In this document: positions 18,555 to 29,637 of the stretch, piece by piece
How positions within the stretch are numbered: the stretch's first letter is position 1
Layout: each line of letters opens with the position of its first letter
Source: Aphanocapsa sp. GSE-SYN-MK-11-07L
GTDB lineage: Bacteria > Cyanobacteriota > Cyanobacteriia > Thermosynechococcales > Thermosynechococcaceae
Assembly (NCBI GenBank): GCA_019359715.1
Contig: JAHHGS010000109.1
Coordinates: forward strand, 1-40,098
DNA: 40,098 bases
Reading direction: 5' to 3'
Made by a program: the position numbers and the translations under genes
Notes under the pieces: generated by a model
The model's input: the letters and a program-made list of their open reading frames with translations, nothing else
What the model was told of the DNA's origin: nothing
Database searches by the model: none

Positions 18555-19235
18555 TTAATGCACAATTAGCCCATCTTGAACCCGAATTACCTGCTTGGTT
18601 CTGGCAGCAACCTCTGGGTTGTGGGTGACAACCACAATTGTAATCCCCTGCTGGTTGAGTTCGGTCAACAGCTCCATCACCTCGCGGGAGGTTTCGGAAT
18701 CGAGCGCCCCGGTTGGCTCGTCGGCGAGGACTAAAGCCGGTTTGTTAACGAGGGCGCGGGCGATCGCCACTCGCTGCTGCTGACCGCCGGACAACTGGCT
18801 GGGTCGATTCGACAAAAAATTGGCTAATCCCACCCGAATCAAGGCTTGCGTGGCTTGCTGACGGCGCTTTGATTTTGGGATATTGGCATAGATCATTGGC
18901 AACATCACATTCTCCAGCGCGGTTGAGCGGGAGAGCAAATTAAACTGCTGAAACACAAACCCGATCCGCTGGTTGCGGACATAGGCCAATTCATCATCGC
19001 TAAAGGCAGTCAAGTTTCTGCCTTCCAGAACATAGTTGCCCGTCGTGGGGCGGTCTAAGCAGCCAATAATATTCATCAGGGTCGATTTACCAGAACCCGA
19101 CGCACCCATGATTGCCACATACTGTCCCTGCTCAATTTCGAGGTCAATTCGCTTCAGCACCGGCACATTCACCTCACCCAAGCGGTAGGTTTTGGTAATC
19201 GCCTGCATTTGAATCATCTGGGGCATATCAGTCAC
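18555..19235 (-). CDS. MacB-type ABC transporter ATP-binding subunit
   Basis: This 226-residue ATPase of the LolD/MacB class has Walker A GASGSGKST, Q-loop VFQQFNLL, signature LSGGQQQR, Walker B LVLADEPTG and the switch histidine in VVTHNPE. It powers the adjacent permease, with which it overlaps by 8 bp (GTG start at 19235), implying translational coupling. An ATG three codons later is the alternative start. It is the last gene of the minus-strand biosynthesis/export block. Substrate not known; MacB systems export lipopeptides, macrolides or small proteins by mechanotransmission. Confidence 0.93.
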   Translation of the reverse strand: MTDMPQMIQMQAITKTYRLGEVNVPVLKRIDLEIEQGQYVAIMGASGSGKSTLMNIIGCLDRPTTGNYVLEGRNLTAFSDDELAYVRNQRIGFVFQQFNLLSRSTALENVMLPMIYANIPKSKRRQQATQALIRVGLANFLSNRPSQLSGGQQQRVAIARALVNKPALVLADEPTGALDSETSREVMELLTELNQQGITIVVVTHNPEVAARTKQVIRVQDGLIVH

Positions 19236-20523
19236 TCCGCAGGGCAGCGATCGGGTCTAAGCGGGCAGCGTTGCGGGCTGGAATTACTCCTGCCAGGAGG
19301 CCAACAATAAAGGATAAGACCAATCCGCAGACAATCGCCCAAATTGAAAGCACAAACGGGAAGCTAAACGCCAGTGAAGCCAAGAAAGCGGTGACAATCC
19401 CGATCGCCATCCCAATGCTGCCGCCGACGGTGGAAATCACAATCGACTCAACTAAAAACTGATTCAAAATATCGGAATTGGCGGCCCCGACGGCCTTGCG
19501 AATGCCAATTTCGCGGGTGCGCTCGACCACCGAAACCAGCATGATGTTGGCAATCCCAATTCCCCCCACGACCAGAGAAATACTGGCAATGGTGACAACC
19601 ATAATCGTCAGCAAGCCGACCACCGCCGTAAAGGTGTTAACAATATCCGTCTGGTTTCTGATTGTGAAATCATCGTCCTGGGAAGCGGCCAGATTATGGC
19701 GCAGGCGCAGCAGGTTGACGACCTGGAATTTAGCCGCCTCCATGTCGTCGTTGCTGCGGGCTTTTACAAACAGCCCATTCACTGCCACGCCGCTGAGGGC
19801 GTTATTGCCGACAATCCGCTTCGACATGCTGGTAAGCGGAATAAACACCTGATCGTCCCGATCCATTGAGCCTTCCGAACCCTTCGGCTCAAAGACGCCA
19901 ATGATTTCGTAGCTTTCGGTTTGAATCCGCAGCTTTTTCCCGATCGGAGTGCTGTCTTTGCCAAACAGTTCATCCCGCACGGTTGAACCCAAAATCGCCA
20001 CGGACTGGGCCTGATCGAGTTCTTCTGGCGTTAAAAACCGGCCTAGGGCTGTCTTGGTGTTTTTCACCTCTGAGTAGTTCAGATCGATCCCGACAATATT
20101 GGTCGAGTGGTTGTCTTTCTCATAAACAACCTGACCAGGGCGCTGGAGATAGGCGGAAACAGCCGCCACAGCCGGAGCCTCTTTGACGATCGCTTCCGCA
20201 TCTTGCCAGGTCAAGGTAGAGCTGGAACCCACCCCCTGGCTAATCCCGCCAGTTCTGGCCGCACTGGGAAGAACTTGCAGGACATCCGTGCCGAGGGCTT
20301 GAATTCGCTGTTCGGTTGCCTTTTGCACCCCCTGCCCGACTGAGGCGATCGCAATCACGGAGGCAATCCCAATCACCACCCCCAACATGGTCAGCCCCGT
20401 CCGCAGCTTGTTGCCCCAAAGCGCCTCCACCGCCATTGATAAAATTTCCAGCCCTGAGACTGGATCGGTGCGCTTAACGGCTAGGACTTTTTGAGGAGAA
20501 GCAGGGGAAGAAATCGTTTTCAT
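19228..20523 (-). CDS. MacB-type ABC transporter permease
   Basis: This 431-residue integral membrane protein has the MacB layout. TM1 is around LRTGLTMLGVVIGIASVIAI. A large periplasmic domain follows (VLPSAARTGG to about residue 290). Three C-terminal helices follow, with LVVGGIGIANIMLVSVVERT, REIGIRKAVGA and ending GVIPARNAARLDPIAALRSD. The ATG at 20523 is chosen because GAGGTG lies 7 nt upstream. A longer open frame to 20649 would overlap the Gly/Pro-coding tail of the HlyD gene and is not credible. It probably forms a tripartite or membrane-to-periplasm pump with the HlyD-type adaptor encoded 17 bp upstream. Confidence 0.92.
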   Translation of the reverse strand: MKTISSPASPQKVLAVKRTDPVSGLEILSMAVEALWGNKLRTGLTMLGVVIGIASVIAIASVGQGVQKATEQRIQALGTDVLQVLPSAARTGGISQGVGSSSTLTWQDAEAIVKEAPAVAAVSAYLQRPGQVVYEKDNHSTNIVGIDLNYSEVKNTKTALGRFLTPEELDQAQSVAILGSTVRDELFGKDSTPIGKKLRIQTESYEIIGVFEPKGSEGSMDRDDQVFIPLTSMSKRIVGNNALSGVAVNGLFVKARSNDDMEAAKFQVVNLLRLRHNLAASQDDDFTIRNQTDIVNTFTAVVGLLTIMVVTIASISLVVGGIGIANIMLVSVVERTREIGIRKAVGAANSDILNQFLVESIVISTVGGSIGMAIGIVTAFLASLAFSFPFVLSIWAIVCGLVLSFIVGLLAGVIPARNAARLDPIAALRSD

Positions 20524-20539
20524 AGCTTGGCACCTCAGC

Positions 20540-22033
20540 TTAAGGGCCACCAGGAGGAGCACCACCCGGCGGGCCACCAGGAGGCCCGCCCGGCCCACCG
20601 GGGCCGCCAGGGGGGCCACCACCGGGTGGGCCATCGTTGGCACCGCCAAATAGATTTGGAAACGAGAAAAAGGAAGGCGCTTTCGGACGCGGCGGTAGGC
20701 TCATTAGCACCTGCTCTTGGCCATTCAGTCCGCTTTTAATTTCAGTCCGGTTGTCAACCGTCGAGCCAGTCGTGACGGGAATAAAGCGGGGGCGCTGATC
20801 TGGCCCCAGCACATAGACGCCGGTGGCTTCATTCTGGCGGGTGACAGCGATCGTTGGCACGGCTAGCACATTCTGCAACTGACCCACCTTAAAGTCCACC
20901 GAGATATTCATGCCTGCCCGCAGTTGCCGCCGAGTATCAGAGAGAATCGTTGACTTGACCAGAAAGCTGGTCACGTTCTGCTGCACTAGGGCTTGGGTGG
21001 AGATTTCAGCCACTTTACCCTGGAAGGTTTCGCCAGGATAAGCATCAGCTTCGATCACGATCGGCTGACCGATCCGGATTTTGGAAATATTGCTTTCCGA
21101 CACATTGGCCACCGCCTGATTGATCGAAGCCAGGGACAGAACCGAGGACGAGGTGGCCGACGTGACCGAACTGCCAGCCGTCATTGGGGTGACAAACGCC
21201 CCAGGGTCGGCGTACTTGCGGAGGACAATCCCGCTGAAAGCAGCCCGAATCACCGTGTCATCAATTAGGGTTTGTATGGTTTGCAGCGAACCGCGGGCAA
21301 AGGTAACTTCCGCCCTAGCTTGATCAATTTCTTCTTGACGCGTACCCGCTCTTTGCAAAGACAAGGCCTGCTGGGCGGCGGCGACTTCGCCTTGAACTTT
21401 ATCGCGCTCGGCCAGCTTTTGATTCAAGGCTAACTGAGAAATTGCTCCGGCATCCTTGAGGGCACGATTGCGCTGATAGTCATCTTCAGCAATTTTCAGC
21501 GCGGCCTGAGCAGTGGCTAGGCGAGCTTGAGCTTGGTCAATATCTTGAATCCGGTTGCCAGCAATTAGCTTCCGCAGATTAGCTTCCGCTTGGGCCAGCT
21601 TGCCCTGCTCTTGCACCAGTTGTCCGCGCAGATTGGAGTCATCCATATAGGCGATCGCCTGTCCTTGGGTGACATAATCCCCTTCGTCCACCAGCAAGCG
21701 CTTGAGAATCCCCTGATTCTTGGGGCTGACATTGATCACTTTTTCCGGCTCAATCGTGCCGTTGGCTGCAATTGTGATCGAGAAGGTCTTGCGCTCGATC
21801 GGCACCACCGCCATCCGAATCGGCTGTGGGCCAAACCACTGCCGATAGGCGAAATAACCGCCGCCGATCACTAACAATAGACCTAAGCCACCCAGCAGCC
21901 GTTTCGGAACTCTCCTAGGTGGCTTGGCAGGCTGAAATTTTTCTGTGGCCTCAGTTTCGGTTAGTGCCAAGTCAGATTTAGGCGGCTCAGATCGCTCTGA
22001 ACGGGGCAATGAATCAAGCGATTTAAATTCCAT
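20540..22033 (-). CDS. HlyD/MacA-type periplasmic adaptor with a Gly/Pro-rich tail
   Basis: This 497-residue membrane fusion protein has a cytoplasmic N-terminal stretch, one TM helix at about 44-63 (RLLGGLGLLLVIGGGYFAY), and a lipoyl half-motif (NQGILKRLLVDEGDYVTQGQ). An alpha-helical hairpin at about 140-260 is rich in Ala, Gln and Glu. The second lipoyl and beta-barrel parts follow (RAAFSGIVLRKYADPG, LRAGMNISVDFKVG). The last 35 or so residues are an unusual run of PPGG units absent from ordinary MacA. It overlaps the upstream ABC transporter gene by 11 bp. It could serve that transporter, the MacB pair, or both. Confidence 0.9.
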   Translation of the reverse strand: MEFKSLDSLPRSERSEPPKSDLALTETEATEKFQPAKPPRRVPKRLLGGLGLLLVIGGGYFAYRQWFGPQPIRMAVVPIERKTFSITIAANGTIEPEKVINVSPKNQGILKRLLVDEGDYVTQGQAIAYMDDSNLRGQLVQEQGKLAQAEANLRKLIAGNRIQDIDQAQARLATAQAALKIAEDDYQRNRALKDAGAISQLALNQKLAERDKVQGEVAAAQQALSLQRAGTRQEEIDQARAEVTFARGSLQTIQTLIDDTVIRAAFSGIVLRKYADPGAFVTPMTAGSSVTSATSSSVLSLASINQAVANVSESNISKIRIGQPIVIEADAYPGETFQGKVAEISTQALVQQNVTSFLVKSTILSDTRRQLRAGMNISVDFKVGQLQNVLAVPTIAVTRQNEATGVYVLGPDQRPRFIPVTTGSTVDNRTEIKSGLNGQEQVLMSLPPRPKAPSFFSFPNLFGGANDGPPGGGPPGGPGGPGGPPGGPPGGAPPGGP

Positions 22034-23996
22034 TTTTCCCTCCTCCTAGCTGACCTGCTAAGGGCAACGGATTGGGCTGAGAGACGACTCTGCCATAGTC
22101 GAGCTTAATCAGTTGGTCAGCCAGATGAAAATAGCGATCGTCGTGGGTAATCACTAACACGGCTTTGCCCCGCTCTTTTAATTTGGTCAAAATCTGCGTA
22201 TAAAAAAGGTCTCGGAACATCGGTTCCTGATCAGCGGCCCATTCATCAAACAAATAAATCGGGCGATCTTCCAGATAGGCAGTCAGCAACGCCAGCCGCT
22301 TACGTTGCCCTTGGGACAGGTGAATGGTTGACAACACCCCATCTTTAACTTGCACCTTATGATCTAGCTGCAACTGGCGCAGATAATTTTGTACCTCTTG
22401 GTCAAGATTATCCTGATGAAAGCCTAAATAGCTCTCAAATAGATAAAAGTCTGAGAAAATGGCGGTGAAATGCTGACGATACCATTCTTGATTTTGATCA
22501 TTGATTTCAACCCCGTCTAAGCGAATGGAGCCAGTTTGAGGCAAGTATAAGCCCGTGATCAATTTAGCTAGGGTTGACTTACCGCTGCCATTGCCGCCTA
22601 CAACAAAGGTAATTTGCCCTGGCTGTAAGGTCATGCTAATGGGGCCGAGCAGAAACCCGCGTTCCCTGCCATCAGGTGGGTGTATTCCTGGTGGGTGCAT
22701 TCCATTCGGCGGGTGCATTCCGCCTGGTGGATGCATTGTGTTGGGTCGGCCATTTTCACGATTAGGTCTGCCACCTTCATGATTTGGCTGACCATTTTCT
22801 GGTTGAAATTCAGGATGGGGTCTGCCGTTCTCGTCTAGTCGCCCATGCTCTGGCGGCTCAGCCAAGCTGCCTTCCGGCGGATGTTCAGGGCGGTTAGCCT
22901 CTGGTTTACTATTCGCCCGCTTAGGAGGGGGGCCAAACGGTAACATGCCTTCACCTCCCGGTGGTGGCATCCCTCCCGGTGGCATATCACTGGGATGATA
23001 GAGGTAAGTAACTTGGTCAAGTTCAAGCAAGCAGCGCTGAGCCATAGCGTAGTCACTGGCTGTCTCAACTTCGGTGCGCTCTGCTAAAGACAGCTTCATC
23101 GCATCAATTTTTTGCAGGGCAACATTGCCACGCAGGATATCCGGTAACCTGCTCAGTAAGTTATGCAGCGGCATCGCCAAAAAAGTCGTTGTCAAGACAT
23201 AGCTGGCTAGCAGTTCTCGCGGCAGGCCAACAATTTGCGGCAAGATGAACAAAATAAAGCCCAAGCTGAGGAATTGCGTGGTCTGCCCAAACGCATTGGC
23301 GACCACGAAGCTCTTCATGGCGGTGCTATTTTTATGCCGCAGCTTGGCCGCACTACTTTGCAGGTGATTAACGGAGAAATCATCCCGTCTTGATTTGTGC
23401 AGCTTCAGCTCTTTAATCCCCTTCGTAATCGCTTGAAAGTGCTTGACAAGGGTATCTTCTTCTTCTCGCGCACTTGTAAATAATCCCTGCGCCTTGCCCA
23501 GTCTGGTTTGGACGCACCACATCGCCAGGGATGCAGAAACAACCGTCAAGACAAAGATGATCCCAGATAGGTAAGCCAGATAGACCAAACAACCGATCAC
23601 CGTTGCTAGGTCAATACACAGGTTGGGAATTGCCGACAAGGTGTGGGAAAGGACGCGGGCATCATCGGTCAAAGTTGCAATCAGGCGATTTTCGCCCAAG
23701 CTTTCCAGATGGGTTAGGGGTGAAGATAAGATGCTGCGGCTCAATCTAACTCGCAACTGGTAAATCGCATTTTGGGACAGCCGAATGAGCAAGAATTGCG
23801 AGAGCGTACTGGTAACCAGGATAAACAGAGTTTCCCCAGCAAAATAATATACTGCGTTCGGAAATGCGGCCTGATTCACCGATCGATTGATCAAAGAAAT
23901 CAGCAGGGCATTACCCGCACCGCCAATGAAGCCGGCGATCGTCGCCATCAGAATGTTTCGCCAGGAAACTTCAAATAGAAATCGAATAAACCTCAT
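22023..23996 (-). CDS. Cyclic-peptide-exporter-type ABC transporter with a His/Pro-rich insertion in its ATPase domain
   Basis: This 657-residue fused permease-ATPase resembles the SyrD/PvdE class. About six TM helices span residues 1-290. The ATPase domain starts at LELDQVTYLY (about 325-334). Walker A GGNGSGKST is at 467-475, signature LSQGQRKRL near 560, Walker B YLFDEWAADQ near 581-590, and H-loop THDD near 617. Between the A-loop strand and RGFLLGPISMTLQPG lies an insertion of about 110 residues (335-446). It is rich in His, Pro, Asn, Glu and Gly and includes MHPPGG/MHPPNG/MHPPG repeats. I know of no such insert in this family. The ATG overlaps the stop of a 57-residue ORF (ATGA) and has AGAGGA upstream. 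Confidence 0.9.
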   Translation of the reverse strand: MRFIRFLFEVSWRNILMATIAGFIGGAGNALLISLINRSVNQAAFPNAVYYFAGETLFILVTSTLSQFLLIRLSQNAIYQLRVRLSRSILSSPLTHLESLGENRLIATLTDDARVLSHTLSAIPNLCIDLATVIGCLVYLAYLSGIIFVLTVVSASLAMWCVQTRLGKAQGLFTSAREEEDTLVKHFQAITKGIKELKLHKSRRDDFSVNHLQSSAAKLRHKNSTAMKSFVVANAFGQTTQFLSLGFILFILPQIVGLPRELLASYVLTTTFLAMPLHNLLSRLPDILRGNVALQKIDAMKLSLAERTEVETASDYAMAQRCLLELDQVTYLYHPSDMPPGGMPPPGGEGMLPFGPPPKRANSKPEANRPEHPPEGSLAEPPEHGRLDENGRPHPEFQPENGQPNHEGGRPNRENGRPNTMHPPGGMHPPNGMHPPGIHPPDGRERGFLLGPISMTLQPGQITFVVGGNGSGKSTLAKLITGLYLPQTGSIRLDGVEINDQNQEWYRQHFTAIFSDFYLFESYLGFHQDNLDQEVQNYLRQLQLDHKVQVKDGVLSTIHLSQGQRKRLALLTAYLEDRPIYLFDEWAADQEPMFRDLFYTQILTKLKERGKAVLVITHDDRYFHLADQLIKLDYGRVVSQPNPLPLAGQLGGGKNGI

Positions 23997-24312: not shown

Positions 24313-25527
24313 CTATACCTTCTGAAACAGCAAACCTTCGATTCCAACTCCTGGTGAAAAGGAAAAAGCGATGCCAGTTAGGGGTTGATGCGGATTGCTG
24401 GGGCCAGCTTGAGAATGAGGGGGATGATTTTCAGACCTGAGCAACATTCGCTCCAGTACAAATAAAACTGAAGCACTGAGCATGTTGCCGTACTGACGCA
24501 GAATCTCCCAGCTATCTGCGACTTGGGCGTCAGTTAAATCTAAAGCAGCCTGCACTTTCTCAATAATTTTGACGCCGCCAGGGTGCACCGCCCACAAATC
24601 AATCCTTTCTTTAGTCAAATCATGACTGGCCAAGAAAGATTCGATAATTGGCCCGACGCCAGCTTCAATGTAATCTGGCAACTGACGGGATAACTTGCAG
24701 GTAATTCCATTATCTTGAACGTCAAGGGAAATTCCATCTTCAGAATTTTCAACTAATTGGCTGAGGTGATCGCGAATGATCACTTTCCCTTGACCGATCG
24801 CTTCTGCTTCGCAAGCGCCAATCACAACCGCCGCGCAGCCATCGCCAAAAATGCTGTGAATAATCACATCATTCAGGTCATCGGCAAAAACAGCATTAAC
24901 CGAACTCAATTCTAAACACACGACCAGCGCTTTATGGGTGGGATTGGCCCGGACATGGTCAGAGGCAATCCGCAGCCCATTCATCGCGGCTGCACACCCC
25001 ATAAAGTTGACGGTGACGCGAGCTGTATCTCGCCGCAGGGCAAGTCGGCGGATGATTTCTGTATCAACCCCAGGGGCAAAAAAGCCTGTGCTGGTGACAA
25101 AAACAACTAAGCGAATTGCATCTTTAAGATTTGGCATCTCAACAGAAGCAGTTGCGATCGCTTGTTTGGCAACACGCTCTGCCAAGGGCACAGCGTGTTC
25201 CTGAAACATCTGCATCCGGGTTTGAATCGTGCTCGGTTGACTGCTAAAGGCGATCGTTTCCTCTAGAAATAAGTCAACAGCTAGGTGTCTAGTGTCAATG
25301 CGCGTGTTGCTGTAGAGCCTTTCTATCCGGGCCCGATTTTGATGCAGATGAGGCAAGCTAGCCACAAATTGAGCTGCTTCAGATTGCCGAACAATATTGT
25401 TTGGCGTACCCGTTGCAATGCTTTCAATGGTTGGCAAAAGTCGCCTCAATCTGGCCGGCGTCGGCTGCACAAAAGGGAAGCTTTCCATTGCCTGATACGA
25501 TTTTTGGAGAGTGTTACTGGTCATCAC
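24313..25527 (-). CDS. Type III polyketide synthase (chalcone/alkylresorcinol synthase-like)
   Basis: This homodimeric thiolase-fold enzyme extends an acyl-CoA starter with malonyl-CoA and cyclises the product. The catalytic triad is visible: C178 in VNFMGCAAAMNGLR, H315 in LWAVHPGGVK and N348 in QYGNMLSASV. The C-terminal signature is FSPGVGIEGLL. At 404 residues it is normal in size. A loop at about 367-382 (ENHPPHSQAGPSNPHQP) before the final strands carries the HPPH motif found repeatedly in the neighbouring repeat protein. The frame begins at GTG 25527, with ATG as the next codon (25524). The adjacent desaturase suggests a long-chain acyl product such as an alkylresorcinol or alkylpyrone. 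Confidence 0.92.
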   Translation of the reverse strand: MMTSNTLQKSYQAMESFPFVQPTPARLRRLLPTIESIATGTPNNIVRQSEAAQFVASLPHLHQNRARIERLYSNTRIDTRHLAVDLFLEETIAFSSQPSTIQTRMQMFQEHAVPLAERVAKQAIATASVEMPNLKDAIRLVVFVTSTGFFAPGVDTEIIRRLALRRDTARVTVNFMGCAAAMNGLRIASDHVRANPTHKALVVCLELSSVNAVFADDLNDVIIHSIFGDGCAAVVIGACEAEAIGQGKVIIRDHLSQLVENSEDGISLDVQDNGITCKLSRQLPDYIEAGVGPIIESFLASHDLTKERIDLWAVHPGGVKIIEKVQAALDLTDAQVADSWEILRQYGNMLSASVLFVLERMLLRSENHPPHSQAGPSNPHQPLTGIAFSFSPGVGIEGLLFQKV

Positions 25528-25638: not shown

Positions 25639-27471
25639 TCAAATTGAACCGATACCAGCGAAACCTTTAATTAAGTAGTCCAACGTTGTCATGAGGGCTT
25701 GAGGATGAAAGTGCTCTTGGAGGACTCCGAACTTCTTGTCCTGGGCCATTCGAGAGGGAACACCTAGATAGTGTTTGAACAGGATTGGCATCCGATCGCG
25801 GAAGAAATTCTTGGGCGCCAACCACTCAATCTCAAACTTTTCAGCTTCTTCCCGGACAATATCTTCGCTAATAATATTGGCGAAACCACTTTTTTGCTGG
25901 GGCAGCACATGATGAACCCGATGGGGACTCAAGCCGGCGGAAAGAAAACAATCAATGTACTTGTTACCAATCATCGTCAGGTCGTAGGAGTTTTTGATCT
26001 GCTGGACGGCCCAATCTCCCTGTTCTTGCCAACTCGGTGGCACGCCTTCCGGGGGGGCTGTTTGGTCTGCTTGCTCTGCGCTTGGCTGGGCAGTGGGGGG
26101 CTGCATCGGCGGCACAGTCGGATCAACCCGCTCTTTTTCCTCTTCAAAATCATGGCTGGCCACAATCATAAAGGTGCTGATCCAAAGGGTGAGCGTGAAT
26201 TGCCCCAGCCAAGCCCAAATATCACCGTAGAGCCAGAACACAAGTAGCTCACCGAACAGCAGGAACCGCATCGCAAAGGTGCCCAAAAAATGAGGCAGGC
26301 TGCGTTGCCAGGAACCATACATATCATCGACGCCAGCCTTGACTGCCAAAATCAGAATCTCAATTGAGCGGGCGAACATGCCCGTTAGAACATGCCCAAT
26401 TTTGTGAACCGTATGGACTGGCACCCGATAGTAGCGGGGCAGATCCATCATTGCCGTAAAGACATTTCTTTTAATATCAACATCGCTTTGGGTAAAGGGA
26501 TGATGCATCAGCGTGTGCCCATCCGTCACCACAAAAGCCAGCGGCACGTAGTTGATATCAAAGACATTCGCGCAGAACTTGTTGAAGCCAACTTGGGGTC
26601 GGTGAATGAAGTAGTGCCCCGCACCGGCCAGGGAAATCCGCAGGGCCGCCATCAGCGGAATAAACACATAGATTGGCATATATTGAGCGAAGCCCAACCG
26701 CAGCACCTGCACCAGCACATAGGCAATCAAGATGCTCAAGCTAGCGACATCGAACCAAAAATCCATTTTGGCGACTCGCTGTTTCATCTCTGGCTCGTTT
26801 ACCCTGGCTTTGATCCGATGCAGCAGTTGGTCATCCTTCAGAAAGTCATATCTGGGGGTGTCAATCCAGCCGTTGAATCCCTCATTAAACAAAAAGGCGG
26901 GGGCATTGTATTTCGGATGAATATCTTCTGGGCGAGCTGTTCTGCCTAGCGAATACTTCTCCATCATTTTCCGATTCTTGGCTGGGTTGGGATGAAAGAC
27001 ATTGACCAGGGTTGTGATATCCCGATTCTTTGTTCGCCCAATAAAAAACTCGCCGCCGGGATGCTTCTTAATGAAATCCGTTAGGTCATAGGCTTCTCCG
27101 GCATAGACCCAAACATTGGGCAGTGGAGTTCCATCTAAGGGATGGGGCGGTGGTTCTTCGTCTTCTCCAGGCGGTGGCAGTAGATTGCCATCCTGATCAA
27201 ACCGGGGCGGTGGCGGCAATCTTCTTTCCCGATCCAGCAGTTGGGTCGGTTGCCCCCCACCTTGGTTAGGGGCCGGATTCTCCGGCTGACTTGGCGGCCC
27301 AGGAGGCGTGGCAGGCTGGTCTGCGATCGGATCAGCGAGTAGGACGGAACTTTCTGAGTGATTAATTCCTGCCGGCTCTGGCTCTAGCTTCTCTTGCTCA
27401 GTGGTTTGGTTAGTACTTGCACCCACATCTTCACCGGCTTTGGTGACATCAATATCCAGAGAGTTCTGCAT
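25639..27471 (-). CDS. Cytochrome b5-fatty acid desaturase/hydroxylase fusion with Pro-rich extensions
   Basis: Residues 1-115 are a disordered acidic and Pro-rich extension (RRLPPPPRF, LLPPPGEDEEPPPHPLDG). A cytochrome b5 domain follows at about 119-180, with heme ligands H137 in KKHPGGEFF and H160 in NVFHPNP. A membrane desaturase domain follows with three His boxes: HYFIH at 286-290, HTLMHH at 319-324 and HRVHH at 517-521. These bind a di-iron centre. A second Pro-rich insertion (about 451-480) splits the domain between boxes two and three. It should desaturate or hydroxylate a lipid or polyketide, using electrons delivered by the fused b5 domain. TGAGG precedes the ATG. The next gene is the polyketide synthase, 112 bp on. 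Confidence 0.88.
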   Translation of the reverse strand: MQNSLDIDVTKAGEDVGASTNQTTEQEKLEPEPAGINHSESSVLLADPIADQPATPPGPPSQPENPAPNQGGGQPTQLLDRERRLPPPPRFDQDGNLLPPPGEDEEPPPHPLDGTPLPNVWVYAGEAYDLTDFIKKHPGGEFFIGRTKNRDITTLVNVFHPNPAKNRKMMEKYSLGRTARPEDIHPKYNAPAFLFNEGFNGWIDTPRYDFLKDDQLLHRIKARVNEPEMKQRVAKMDFWFDVASLSILIAYVLVQVLRLGFAQYMPIYVFIPLMAALRISLAGAGHYFIHRPQVGFNKFCANVFDINYVPLAFVVTDGHTLMHHPFTQSDVDIKRNVFTAMMDLPRYYRVPVHTVHKIGHVLTGMFARSIEILILAVKAGVDDMYGSWQRSLPHFLGTFAMRFLLFGELLVFWLYGDIWAWLGQFTLTLWISTFMIVASHDFEEEKERVDPTVPPMQPPTAQPSAEQADQTAPPEGVPPSWQEQGDWAVQQIKNSYDLTMIGNKYIDCFLSAGLSPHRVHHVLPQQKSGFANIISEDIVREEAEKFEIEWLAPKNFFRDRMPILFKHYLGVPSRMAQDKKFGVLQEHFHPQALMTTLDYLIKGFAGIGSI

Positions 27472-27700
27472 GTAAAAACCTCATCAGAAAACTTAAAATT
27501 GAAAGTAAAAATGAAGTCAGTAAACTGGCGCACACTTGCAGCGCGCAGCCTAGTTAGCTGGAGTTATGATTAGTTCAGATCTGGGGCGTTATCGTCTAAA
27601 GACTGACATACCCCAATGGACTGAAAAAACGGTGATTTAGTTGCTTAAGATGCTTTGTCTTTACGAAAATTTAAACCCAAAAGACAATTGGCATCTCAAG

Positions 27701-28141
27701 TTAAGAAGCTGGTGGCTGTTCGCCTGTCCCAGGTTGCGGAGGTTGTCCAGGTTGTCCACCTCCGCCGGGTCGGGGAGGCTGTCCGCCTGTCCCAGGTCGC
27801 GGGGGTTGCCCACCAGTACCGGGATGGGGAGGATGACCGCTTGCGCTGGGATGGGGAGGTTGCCCACCAGCACCGGGATGGGGAGGATGACCGCTTGCGC
27901 CAGGATGGGGAGGATGACCGCTTGCGCCAGGATGAGGCGGGTGCTCACCTACACCGGGATGGGGAGGATGTTCACCTCCGCCAGGATGAGGCGGGTGCTC
28001 ACCTGCACCGGGATGGGGAGGATGTTCACCTCCGCCAGGATGAGGCGGGTGCTCACCTGCACCGGGATGGGGAGGATGTTCGCCCATCTGGTCAGCCGGA
28101 GCCGGATTGTCAATGGCATTAAACTCTGAGGGGTCTTGCAT
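27701..28141 (-). CDS. His/Pro-rich nonapeptide-repeat protein (146 aa)
   Basis: After a 19-residue non-repetitive head (MQDPSEFNAIDNPAPADQM) come 12 nonapeptides of consensus GEHPPHPG(A/G). They drift to GGQPPRPGT toward the C-terminus and end GEQPPAS. About 19 histidines are present; there is no cysteine, signal peptide or hydrophobic segment. Support for this frame: neighbouring units encode the same nonapeptide with different codons (GAA/GAG, CAT/CAC, CCT/CCG, CCC/CCT, CCC/CCT, GGT/GGC). AGGAAG precedes the ATG. It heads the minus-strand block, 229 bp before the desaturase gene. The chain is likely polyproline-II, perhaps metal-binding or a scaffold or cargo. Function not known. Confidence 0.8.
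   Translation of the reverse strand: MQDPSEFNAIDNPAPADQMGEHPPHPGAGEHPPHPGGGEHPPHPGAGEHPPHPGGGEHPPHPGVGEHPPHPGASGHPPHPGASGHPPHPGAGGQPPHPSASGHPPHPGTGGQPPRPGTGGQPPRPGGGGQPGQPPQPGTGEQPPAS
27761..28084 (-). repeat. 27-bp tandem repeats (12 units, with 54-bp higher-order units)
   Basis: Twelve 27-bp units encode the nonapeptides of the His/Pro-rich protein. The 5' part of the gene is organised as nearly identical 54-bp pairs, one unit using GAA CAT CCT CCC and the next GAG CAC CCG CCT. This shows recent duplication of a two-unit block. The 3' units are more diverged. The array length probably varies between strains through slippage or recombination. Because 27 is a multiple of three, spurious open frames appear on the opposite strand. 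Confidence 0.92.
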
Positions 28142-28489: not shown

Positions 28490-28804
28490 TTACAATAAGC
28501 TGTCTGCAATTAGATTTCCGTGACCATTATCAAACCTAAGCTGTGATAGTTTCTGCCTCTGCTGTTGATAGAGATCACACTTGCAAGTGCTTCGGATCAG
28601 GGTGCCAGCAAAATTGCGAAACCGATTGTAGTGCTGAGACGTAGCCATAGTCACCCAATCGCCCTCCGGCGCTTGGCAATCTATCCTTTGCCGTAGCTTC
28701 ATCAACGATTGATCACTGAGGTCAGTTCCGCATCCTAATCTAGGGTGATGACTATCACAAGGCTGTGCAGGATTGATCGCTGCTGCTTTAGGTGTGTTGA
28801 TCAT
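28490..28804 (-). CDS. Hypothetical protein coupled to the lipoprotein gene (104 aa)
   Basis: The ATG at 28804 overlaps the TGA of the upstream lipoprotein gene in an ATGA junction, so translation by re-initiation is likely if the frame is real. The middle reads like protein (QRIDCQAPEGDWVTMATSQH and YNRFRNFAGTLI), with four cysteines and no signal or membrane segment. The N-terminal 25 residues are less convincing. I recognise no family. It could be a decayed extension rather than a functional gene. Confidence 0.4.
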   Translation of the reverse strand: MINTPKAAAINPAQPCDSHHPRLGCGTDLSDQSLMKLRQRIDCQAPEGDWVTMATSQHYNRFRNFAGTLIRSTCKCDLYQQQRQKLSQLRFDNGHGNLIADSLL

Positions 28805-29637
28805 CTTCTTCTCCGGCTACCAGAGCTGCCAAAACTTTTGTTAGTGCGTTTGGTGAAACCGCTAGAGTCATTGGATCTGCGGAGGGTATTGATGCCAAAC
28901 CCTGAGCCAGTCGAGCGATCGCCAGAACTGGGAGCAATCACTTTTCGCTTTTTGGTCGTTGTTGTTGTCACCGTTCTTAGGTTGCCGGTGGTGCGAATCG
29001 TCTGACGGTTCCTGACAGCGACGGGAGGCGCGTTATAGCGTTGGCGATAGCTGTTTACCGCTTGGTTATAGTCCCGGCCATAGCCGCCAAAGCCAGTGAT
29101 GCCGCCGGGCTGATAGAGGGGCGGCACATAATACTGCGGTCTGAACAGCAGACTCCCTAAGGCCTGACCCGCTAACGCTCCCGCAAAGGGCGACCAAAAA
29201 CTCGACTCTTGACGAACGACCATTGTTTCAGACTGTCCCGTTTGAGGATTATTCTGCGTTTCAGTCACATTATGCACGTAGTCAATCTTGAAATCTTTGC
29301 TCAGATGCAGGGAAGGCTGGTCATTTTCAACTTTAAGGTAGCTTTGGACTCCCTTGGCCACTTCATCGTCGGTCAGTTGTGCCATCGGCAGGCTGGTCGT
29401 CCGGTAGGCAGACGCCTCCCCTGGCTTGGTGTTCAGCAACATCACCGTATATTCCCCATTTGCATCATTGTAAGTTGCCTGCTGAACCGGATATTGACCA
29501 CTTGACACCCGGTTCACGGTTGGGGGGGTAGGAATTGCAGAAATACCTGGCTGAGGGGGAGGGCTACCGCAAGCCAAAGATGTCAAGCTCAGTCCCAAGA
29601 CTAATGAATAGATCAAAAAACGGCGCAGGAGGTTCAT
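28801..29637 (-). CDS. Predicted lipoprotein of unknown function (278 aa)
   Basis: The N-terminus has a lipoprotein signal (MNLLRRFLIYSLVLGLSL) and a lipobox TSLAC with acylated Cys at about residue 23. The middle (PVQQATYNDANGEYTVMLLN to DFKIDYVHNVTETQ) looks like a small folded domain. It is followed by a Gly-rich hydrophobic patch (FAGALAGQALGSLLF), a Tyr/Gly/Pro region and a Ser/Thr/Arg-rich tail ending GSSGSRRRR. The tail may bind nucleic acid or acidic polymers, or be proteolysed. It lies 53 bp downstream of the DUF1517-like gene on the same strand. Confidence 0.75.
   Translation of the reverse strand: MNLLRRFLIYSLVLGLSLTSLACGSPPPQPGISAIPTPPTVNRVSSGQYPVQQATYNDANGEYTVMLLNTKPGEASAYRTTSLPMAQLTDDEVAKGVQSYLKVENDQPSLHLSKDFKIDYVHNVTETQNNPQTGQSETMVVRQESSFWSPFAGALAGQALGSLLFRPQYYVPPLYQPGGITGFGGYGRDYNQAVNSYRQRYNAPPVAVRNRQTIRTTGNLRTVTTTTTKKRKVIAPSSGDRSTGSGFGINTLRRSNDSSGFTKRTNKSFGSSGSRRRR

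Follow-up and report, generated by a model that had tools for sequence, protein, structure and literature searches.

Tracts rich in histidine and proline (H/P) recur in several proteins of a cytochrome b5-associated type III polyketide synthase (PKS) gene cluster, a feature for which no paper was found among open-access papers. The copy of the cluster in the window (the whole 40,098-nucleotide stretch analyzed here) begins with HPrep, a small ORF of His/Pro/Gly nonapeptide repeats, which also carries this composition. With a probability of roughly 40%, HPrep belongs, as a soluble and multivalent component, to an assembly system that links synthesis to export, in which the tracts of the desaturase and the exporter would associate. 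The evidence comes from the repeat array itself, from tract composition and co-variation across related clusters, and from a long insert in the exporter that is specific to the cluster.

HPrep and the genes that follow it

HPrep (Table 1) has no match in Pfam or NCBIfam. Its nonapeptides span residues 20-127, follow the consensus G-E/G-H-P-P-H-P-G-x and are succeeded by an irregular PG/PQ tail; altogether, the protein contains 19 His, 45 Pro, and 34 Gly. Tandem Repeats Finder reports periods of 27 bp (12.2 copies) and, with higher scores, 54 bp. In the terminal units HPPHP becomes QPPRP, i.e., His is lost and Pro is kept. Glycine occupies only positions 1 and 8 of the consensus, and collagen-like G-X-Y triplets are thus absent. 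The original prediction of an unsecreted protein with twelve nonapeptides and about 19 His agrees with this architecture, and no hydrophobic stretch was found in the N-terminal leader. We take HPrep to be a small soluble protein, probably disordered and polyproline-like, and presumably cytosolic.

Adjacent units had been claimed to differ by six silent codons and one replacement, which is exact for units 2 and 3 (the replacement lies at residue 9), while units 1 and 2 differ by seven silent changes and one replacement according to the codon table. Across the twelve units, the minimum numbers of changes at codon positions 1/2/3 are 3/4/15 (binomial p about 0.0009), and the probability that at least six of seven changes are silent under neutrality is 0.002-0.005. 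The within-array comparison of substitutions suggested along with the claim yields a mean pairwise pN/pS of 0.07 within the first six units and of 0.27 over all twelve. Since units 1-6 consist of a 54-bp block repeated three times almost unchanged, the silent differences between A and B represent one divergence rather than many, and the evidence for selection is thinner than twelve units suggest. Likewise, because 27 is a multiple of three, several reading frames stay open across the array, and this openness proves little. However, the antisense frame that shares the third positions of HPrep contains six TGA stops, so that the third-position signal belongs to the strand and frame of HPrep. Two long antisense ORFs cover the array (27641-28129 and 27655-28122, plus strand); their third positions miss the variable columns, and they therefore look like by-products of a frame-preserving repeat. 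Within the array, the third-position bias and the low pN/pS support the proposed selection at the amino-acid level, and selection on HPrep as a peptide appears credible.

Table 1. Features of the HPrep cluster in the window and of slot ORFs at related loci (coordinates of the slot ORFs refer to their own loci).
Feature	Position	Strand	Remarks
HPrep, His/Pro/Gly nonapeptide-repeat ORF	27701..28141	-	ATG start, 146 aa
Acidic leader of HPrep, 19 residues	28085..28141	-	MQDPSEFNAIDNPAPADQM; direct reading; not a signal peptide
Twelve 27-bp units of HPrep	27761..28084	-	PPHP in ten, PPRP in the last two
HPrep units 1-6, three near-identical 54-bp A+B blocks	27923..28084	-	recent duplication
Gap between HPrep and next gene	27472..27700	-	229 bp
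Cytochrome b5 + membrane desaturase-like enzyme	25639..27471	-	610 aa; Cyt-b5 8.6e-12
Pro-rich, low-confidence N-terminal tract of desaturase	27118..27471	-	ends in EEPPPHPLDGTPLP
Type III PKS	24313..25527	-	Chal_sti_synt_N/C
ABC exporter, TIGR01194 (cyclic-peptide export type)	22023..23996	-	5.8e-127
H/P/G-rich insert in β1-β2 loop of exporter nucleotide-binding domain (NBD)	22656..22997	-	about 114 aa
HlyD/MacA-like membrane fusion protein	20540..22033	-	TIGR01730 8e-45; Pro-Gly C-terminal tail
MacB-type permease	19228..20523	-	Pfam; probable start ATG near 20523
MacB-type ATPase	18555..19235	-	orthologues adjoin permease in other clusters
Slot ORF, Microcystis and G548	L036 5715-6044; L069 8877-9206; L070 11224-11499		small, P/H-rich, 5' of desaturase

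HPrep was proposed to head an export block. It is indeed the first gene of a collinear minus-strand run, but the block is a cluster for biosynthesis plus export (b5-desaturase, PKS, ABC, HlyD, MacB), which probably makes and exports a lipid-like polyketide. No terminator-like or promoter-like site was found on the minus strand of the gap downstream of HPrep, and with no terminator-like site there, co-transcription with the desaturase gene appears plausible. For the desaturase-like enzyme of the window, Cyt-b5 is the only domain match, and a fold search of its model against the PDB recovered cytochrome b5 alone, the model being weak outside its helices. Its assignment as a desaturase is based on the histidine boxes HYFIH, HTLMHH, and HRVHH, together with the FA_desaturase match (1.7e-10) of the orthologue L053; we take the boxes to be of the type typical of di-iron enzymes, and the protein is presumably a non-heme di-iron desaturase. 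The exporter scores 424.6 bits, compared to a curated cut-off of 286.2 bits, and carries no C39 peptidase domain according to Pfam. The MacB permease was listed as 19228-20649, from a TTG start that overlaps the HlyD gene; the ATG given in Table 1 fits better. Upstream of HPrep, two ORFs lie on the same strand at 28490-29637, one of 104 aa (no Pfam match over cut-off) and one of 278 aa (lipoprotein-like N-terminus).

Histidine/proline-rich tracts in related clusters

Scans of cyanobacterial genomes identified 18 clusters that combine a desaturase gene with a PKS gene; they occur, among others, in Microcystis, Nostoc, Calothrix, Phormidium, Leptolyngbyaceae, Pleurocapsa, and Gloeobacterales. 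As a query, the window desaturase alone gave no match, unlike a two-sequence alignment. The desaturase orthologues are 57-68% identical to that of the window. In L071, L072, and L048, other genes adjoin the PKS or exporter and replace HlyD/MacB, namely an ORF of 820-835 aa with an ABC ATPase match or an ORF of ~900 aa with a Cys-rich start.

The desaturase N-terminus, the exporter NBD, and the HlyD tail contain tracts that vary in sequence but resemble each other in composition. A density of 12 H+P in 40 residues is reached by 11/19 desaturase, 10/16 exporter, and 4/9 HlyD ORFs, and by 2/110 flanking control ORFs. At this threshold, MacB has no tract, and neither has the PKS, whose single high value (L049) stems from an over-extended start. 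The His share is 11% in exporter inserts, 13% in HPrep, and 2% in the desaturase N-terminal tracts, which are P-rich.

The exporter insert adjoins the A-loop strand; in Microcystis (PPFPPEGSPEGH) and G548 (GENGHPPAHPEGF), it takes the form of repeats. The β1-β2 loop measures 32-116 aa in 13/15 cluster exporters and 9 aa in each of the other two, compared to 8-11 aa in 29 TIGR01194 exporters outside the cluster (p=2e-7, shared ancestry uncorrected); the short-looped controls include a paralogue from the genome of the window (L090). An additional insert of 94 aa with 17 His and 30 Pro in G473 brings the count to 14/16 clusters. In the exporter model (mean pLDDT 52.9), the insert reaches a pLDDT of only about 27, and from this very low value and its composition it is taken as disordered; the desaturase N-terminus, too, is predicted with the very low confidence seen in disordered tracts.

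The H+P counts of desaturase N-terminus and exporter insert are correlated (Spearman 0.71, n=15; rho 0.76 at n=16), also as independent contrasts on a PKS tree (r=0.73, p=0.002), which was built without PKS18 or published clade members. The PKS N-terminus as a negative control gives a rho of 0.01. GC content was rejected as the driver, as the correlation survives correction for locus GC. Exceptions to the pattern are L050, which lacks both insert and desaturase tract, and L049, which lacks the insert. That the tracts of enzyme and exporter rise and fall together suggests a shared assembly tag. The motif PPHP is found 20 times in tracts outside HPrep, compared to 2.7±1.6 times in composition shuffles, although the corresponding p-value is optimistic because the occurrences are partly homologous. 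It is spread over the desaturase, the exporter, the slot ORF, a Microcystis neighbor gene, and HPrep, whereas the flanking ORFs, with 51,675 residues in total, contain it a single time. The neighbor gene (Microcystis G144, L036 4437-5093) encodes a PPHPxG-repeat tract, has only a weak YflT-like match (E=0.19), and is absent from 11 other Microcystis genomes; its distant matches in the genome of the window are devoid of the PPHPxG-repeat tract.

A sequence search of 357 other cyanobacterial genomes found no relatives of HPrep, and a protein with DRPPYQGGG repeats (S18-like by inspection), considered as a homologue among 358 cyanobacterial genomes, proved to be a compositional match only. In two Microcystis genomes and G548, a slot ORF with a conserved C-terminal domain of ~50 aa occupies the position 5' of the desaturase. 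The domain has no match in the window, including the region downstream of HPrep; for want of such a remnant, HPrep was rejected as a truncated slot protein. An origin as a split-off desaturase N-terminus was likewise dismissed, as this N-terminus is complete. The carriers of the slot ORF form a fully supported clade of the PKS tree that excludes the window, so HPrep and slot ORF may have separate origins. Most clusters have no ORF of any kind in this slot, and such an ORF is thus not essential; where one occurs, the exporter inserts are H/P-rich (p=0.005, shared ancestry uncorrected).

A comparison of two Microcystis genomes gives dN/dS values of 0.28 for the slot tract, 0.15 for the desaturase tract, and 0.08 for the exporter insert, the last from only 10 changes. 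The same comparison (L036 and L069) yields a dS of 0.76-0.85 in the desaturase and slot-ORF tracts, compared to 0.14 for the core of the desaturase; misalignment, fast turnover, hypermutability, or recombination could account for the higher values.

Possible roles of HPrep

Among the options of the original prediction, the scaffold fits best, because the neighboring desaturase and exporter carry similar tracts, with the multivalent association as a step that we infer. The cytosolic tracts and free HPrep would associate weakly and multivalently, either mutually or via a common partner, and could thereby hold desaturase and exporter together, with HPrep as the soluble linker between them; the product might then be handed from synthesis to export within the assembly. 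The slot of HPrep is filled in Microcystis and a relative by another small P/H-rich ORF. In a bolder version, which we consider doubtful, the cluster marks its enzyme and exporter by a common disordered, His/Pro-rich code that evolves rapidly and extends to a loop of an ABC NBD, and the free repeat protein joins them in an assembly or condensate.

The tracts may instead be passive spacers or near-neutral low-complexity sequence, in which Pro/His codon repeats expand by slippage and HPrep is young and of little function. We regard this as rather unlikely, even though HPrep is lineage-specific, its 54-bp duplications are recent, and tract turnover is fast, as in the raised dS of the two Microcystis tracts. 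Against it stand the third-position bias of the array and the low dN/dS of the related Microcystis tracts, as well as the absence of tracts from PKS and MacB. Passive spacing accounts for the fast turnover, but not for the specificity of the exporter insert to the cluster or the co-variation of desaturase and exporter tracts. Binding of Ni, Cu, Zn, or Fe by the repeats and the exporter loop, for buffering, sensing, or delivery to the desaturase, is less probable still: the His content of HPrep and the inserts and the presumed di-iron center of the desaturase would suit such a function, but the desaturase tracts contain hardly any His, no evident metal-related gene is present among the cluster genes examined, and the exchange of His for Gln/Arg with retention of Pro in the terminal units carries mild weight in the same direction.

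Finally, HPrep could be an exported cargo or the precursor of a peptide with a 19-residue leader, as had been proposed, in line with its place beside exporter genes, one of which belongs to a family named for cyclic-peptide export. This is highly improbable: the exporter lacks the peptidase domain, the junction before the core reads DQM-GEH and offers neither a Gly-Gly nor a Gly-Ala cleavage site, no peptide-modifying enzyme is found, and HPrep is missing from most clusters that have this exporter. Its neighbors, a desaturase and a type III PKS, make a polyketide lipid the more probable cargo.

If a scaffolding role of HPrep holds true, unrelated pathway proteins with co-varying tracts would represent a bacterial, composition-coded assembly that leads from biosynthesis to export. 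The tracts would also provide a testable handle on an orphan family of cyanobacterial polyketides and on what a large disordered insert next to the A-loop does in an ABC ATPase.

Relation to known systems

Disordered scaffold proteins and coacervating His/Pro/Gly repeat proteins contain multivalent low-complexity repeats. HPrep shares this property without sequence kinship. The slot protein of Microcystis and G548 resembles HPrep in position and P/H-richness, but differs by its C-terminal domain.

At the level of the cluster, the closest known systems are type III PKS clusters associated with cytochrome b5 and transporters, which have been known since 2021, with an uncharacterized product (PMC8086630). 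The cluster of the window resembles them in the cytochrome b5 gene just upstream of the PKS and in the presence of transporters, which in the window are ABC, HlyD, and MacB. However, the window encodes a fusion of b5 and desaturase where the published clusters have a cytochrome b5 gene; a text search of that article returns no mention of a desaturase or HlyD, and H/P tracts and slot ORFs are absent from its section on the clusters. Moreover, its authors call the clusters poorly conserved (PMC8086630), whereas the desaturase orthologues retain the identity to the window reported above. The exporter, in turn, is alike to the TIGR01194 cyclic-peptide exporters by its score above the curated cut-off, but while these have a short NBD loop, most members of the cluster carry a long, H/P-rich one.
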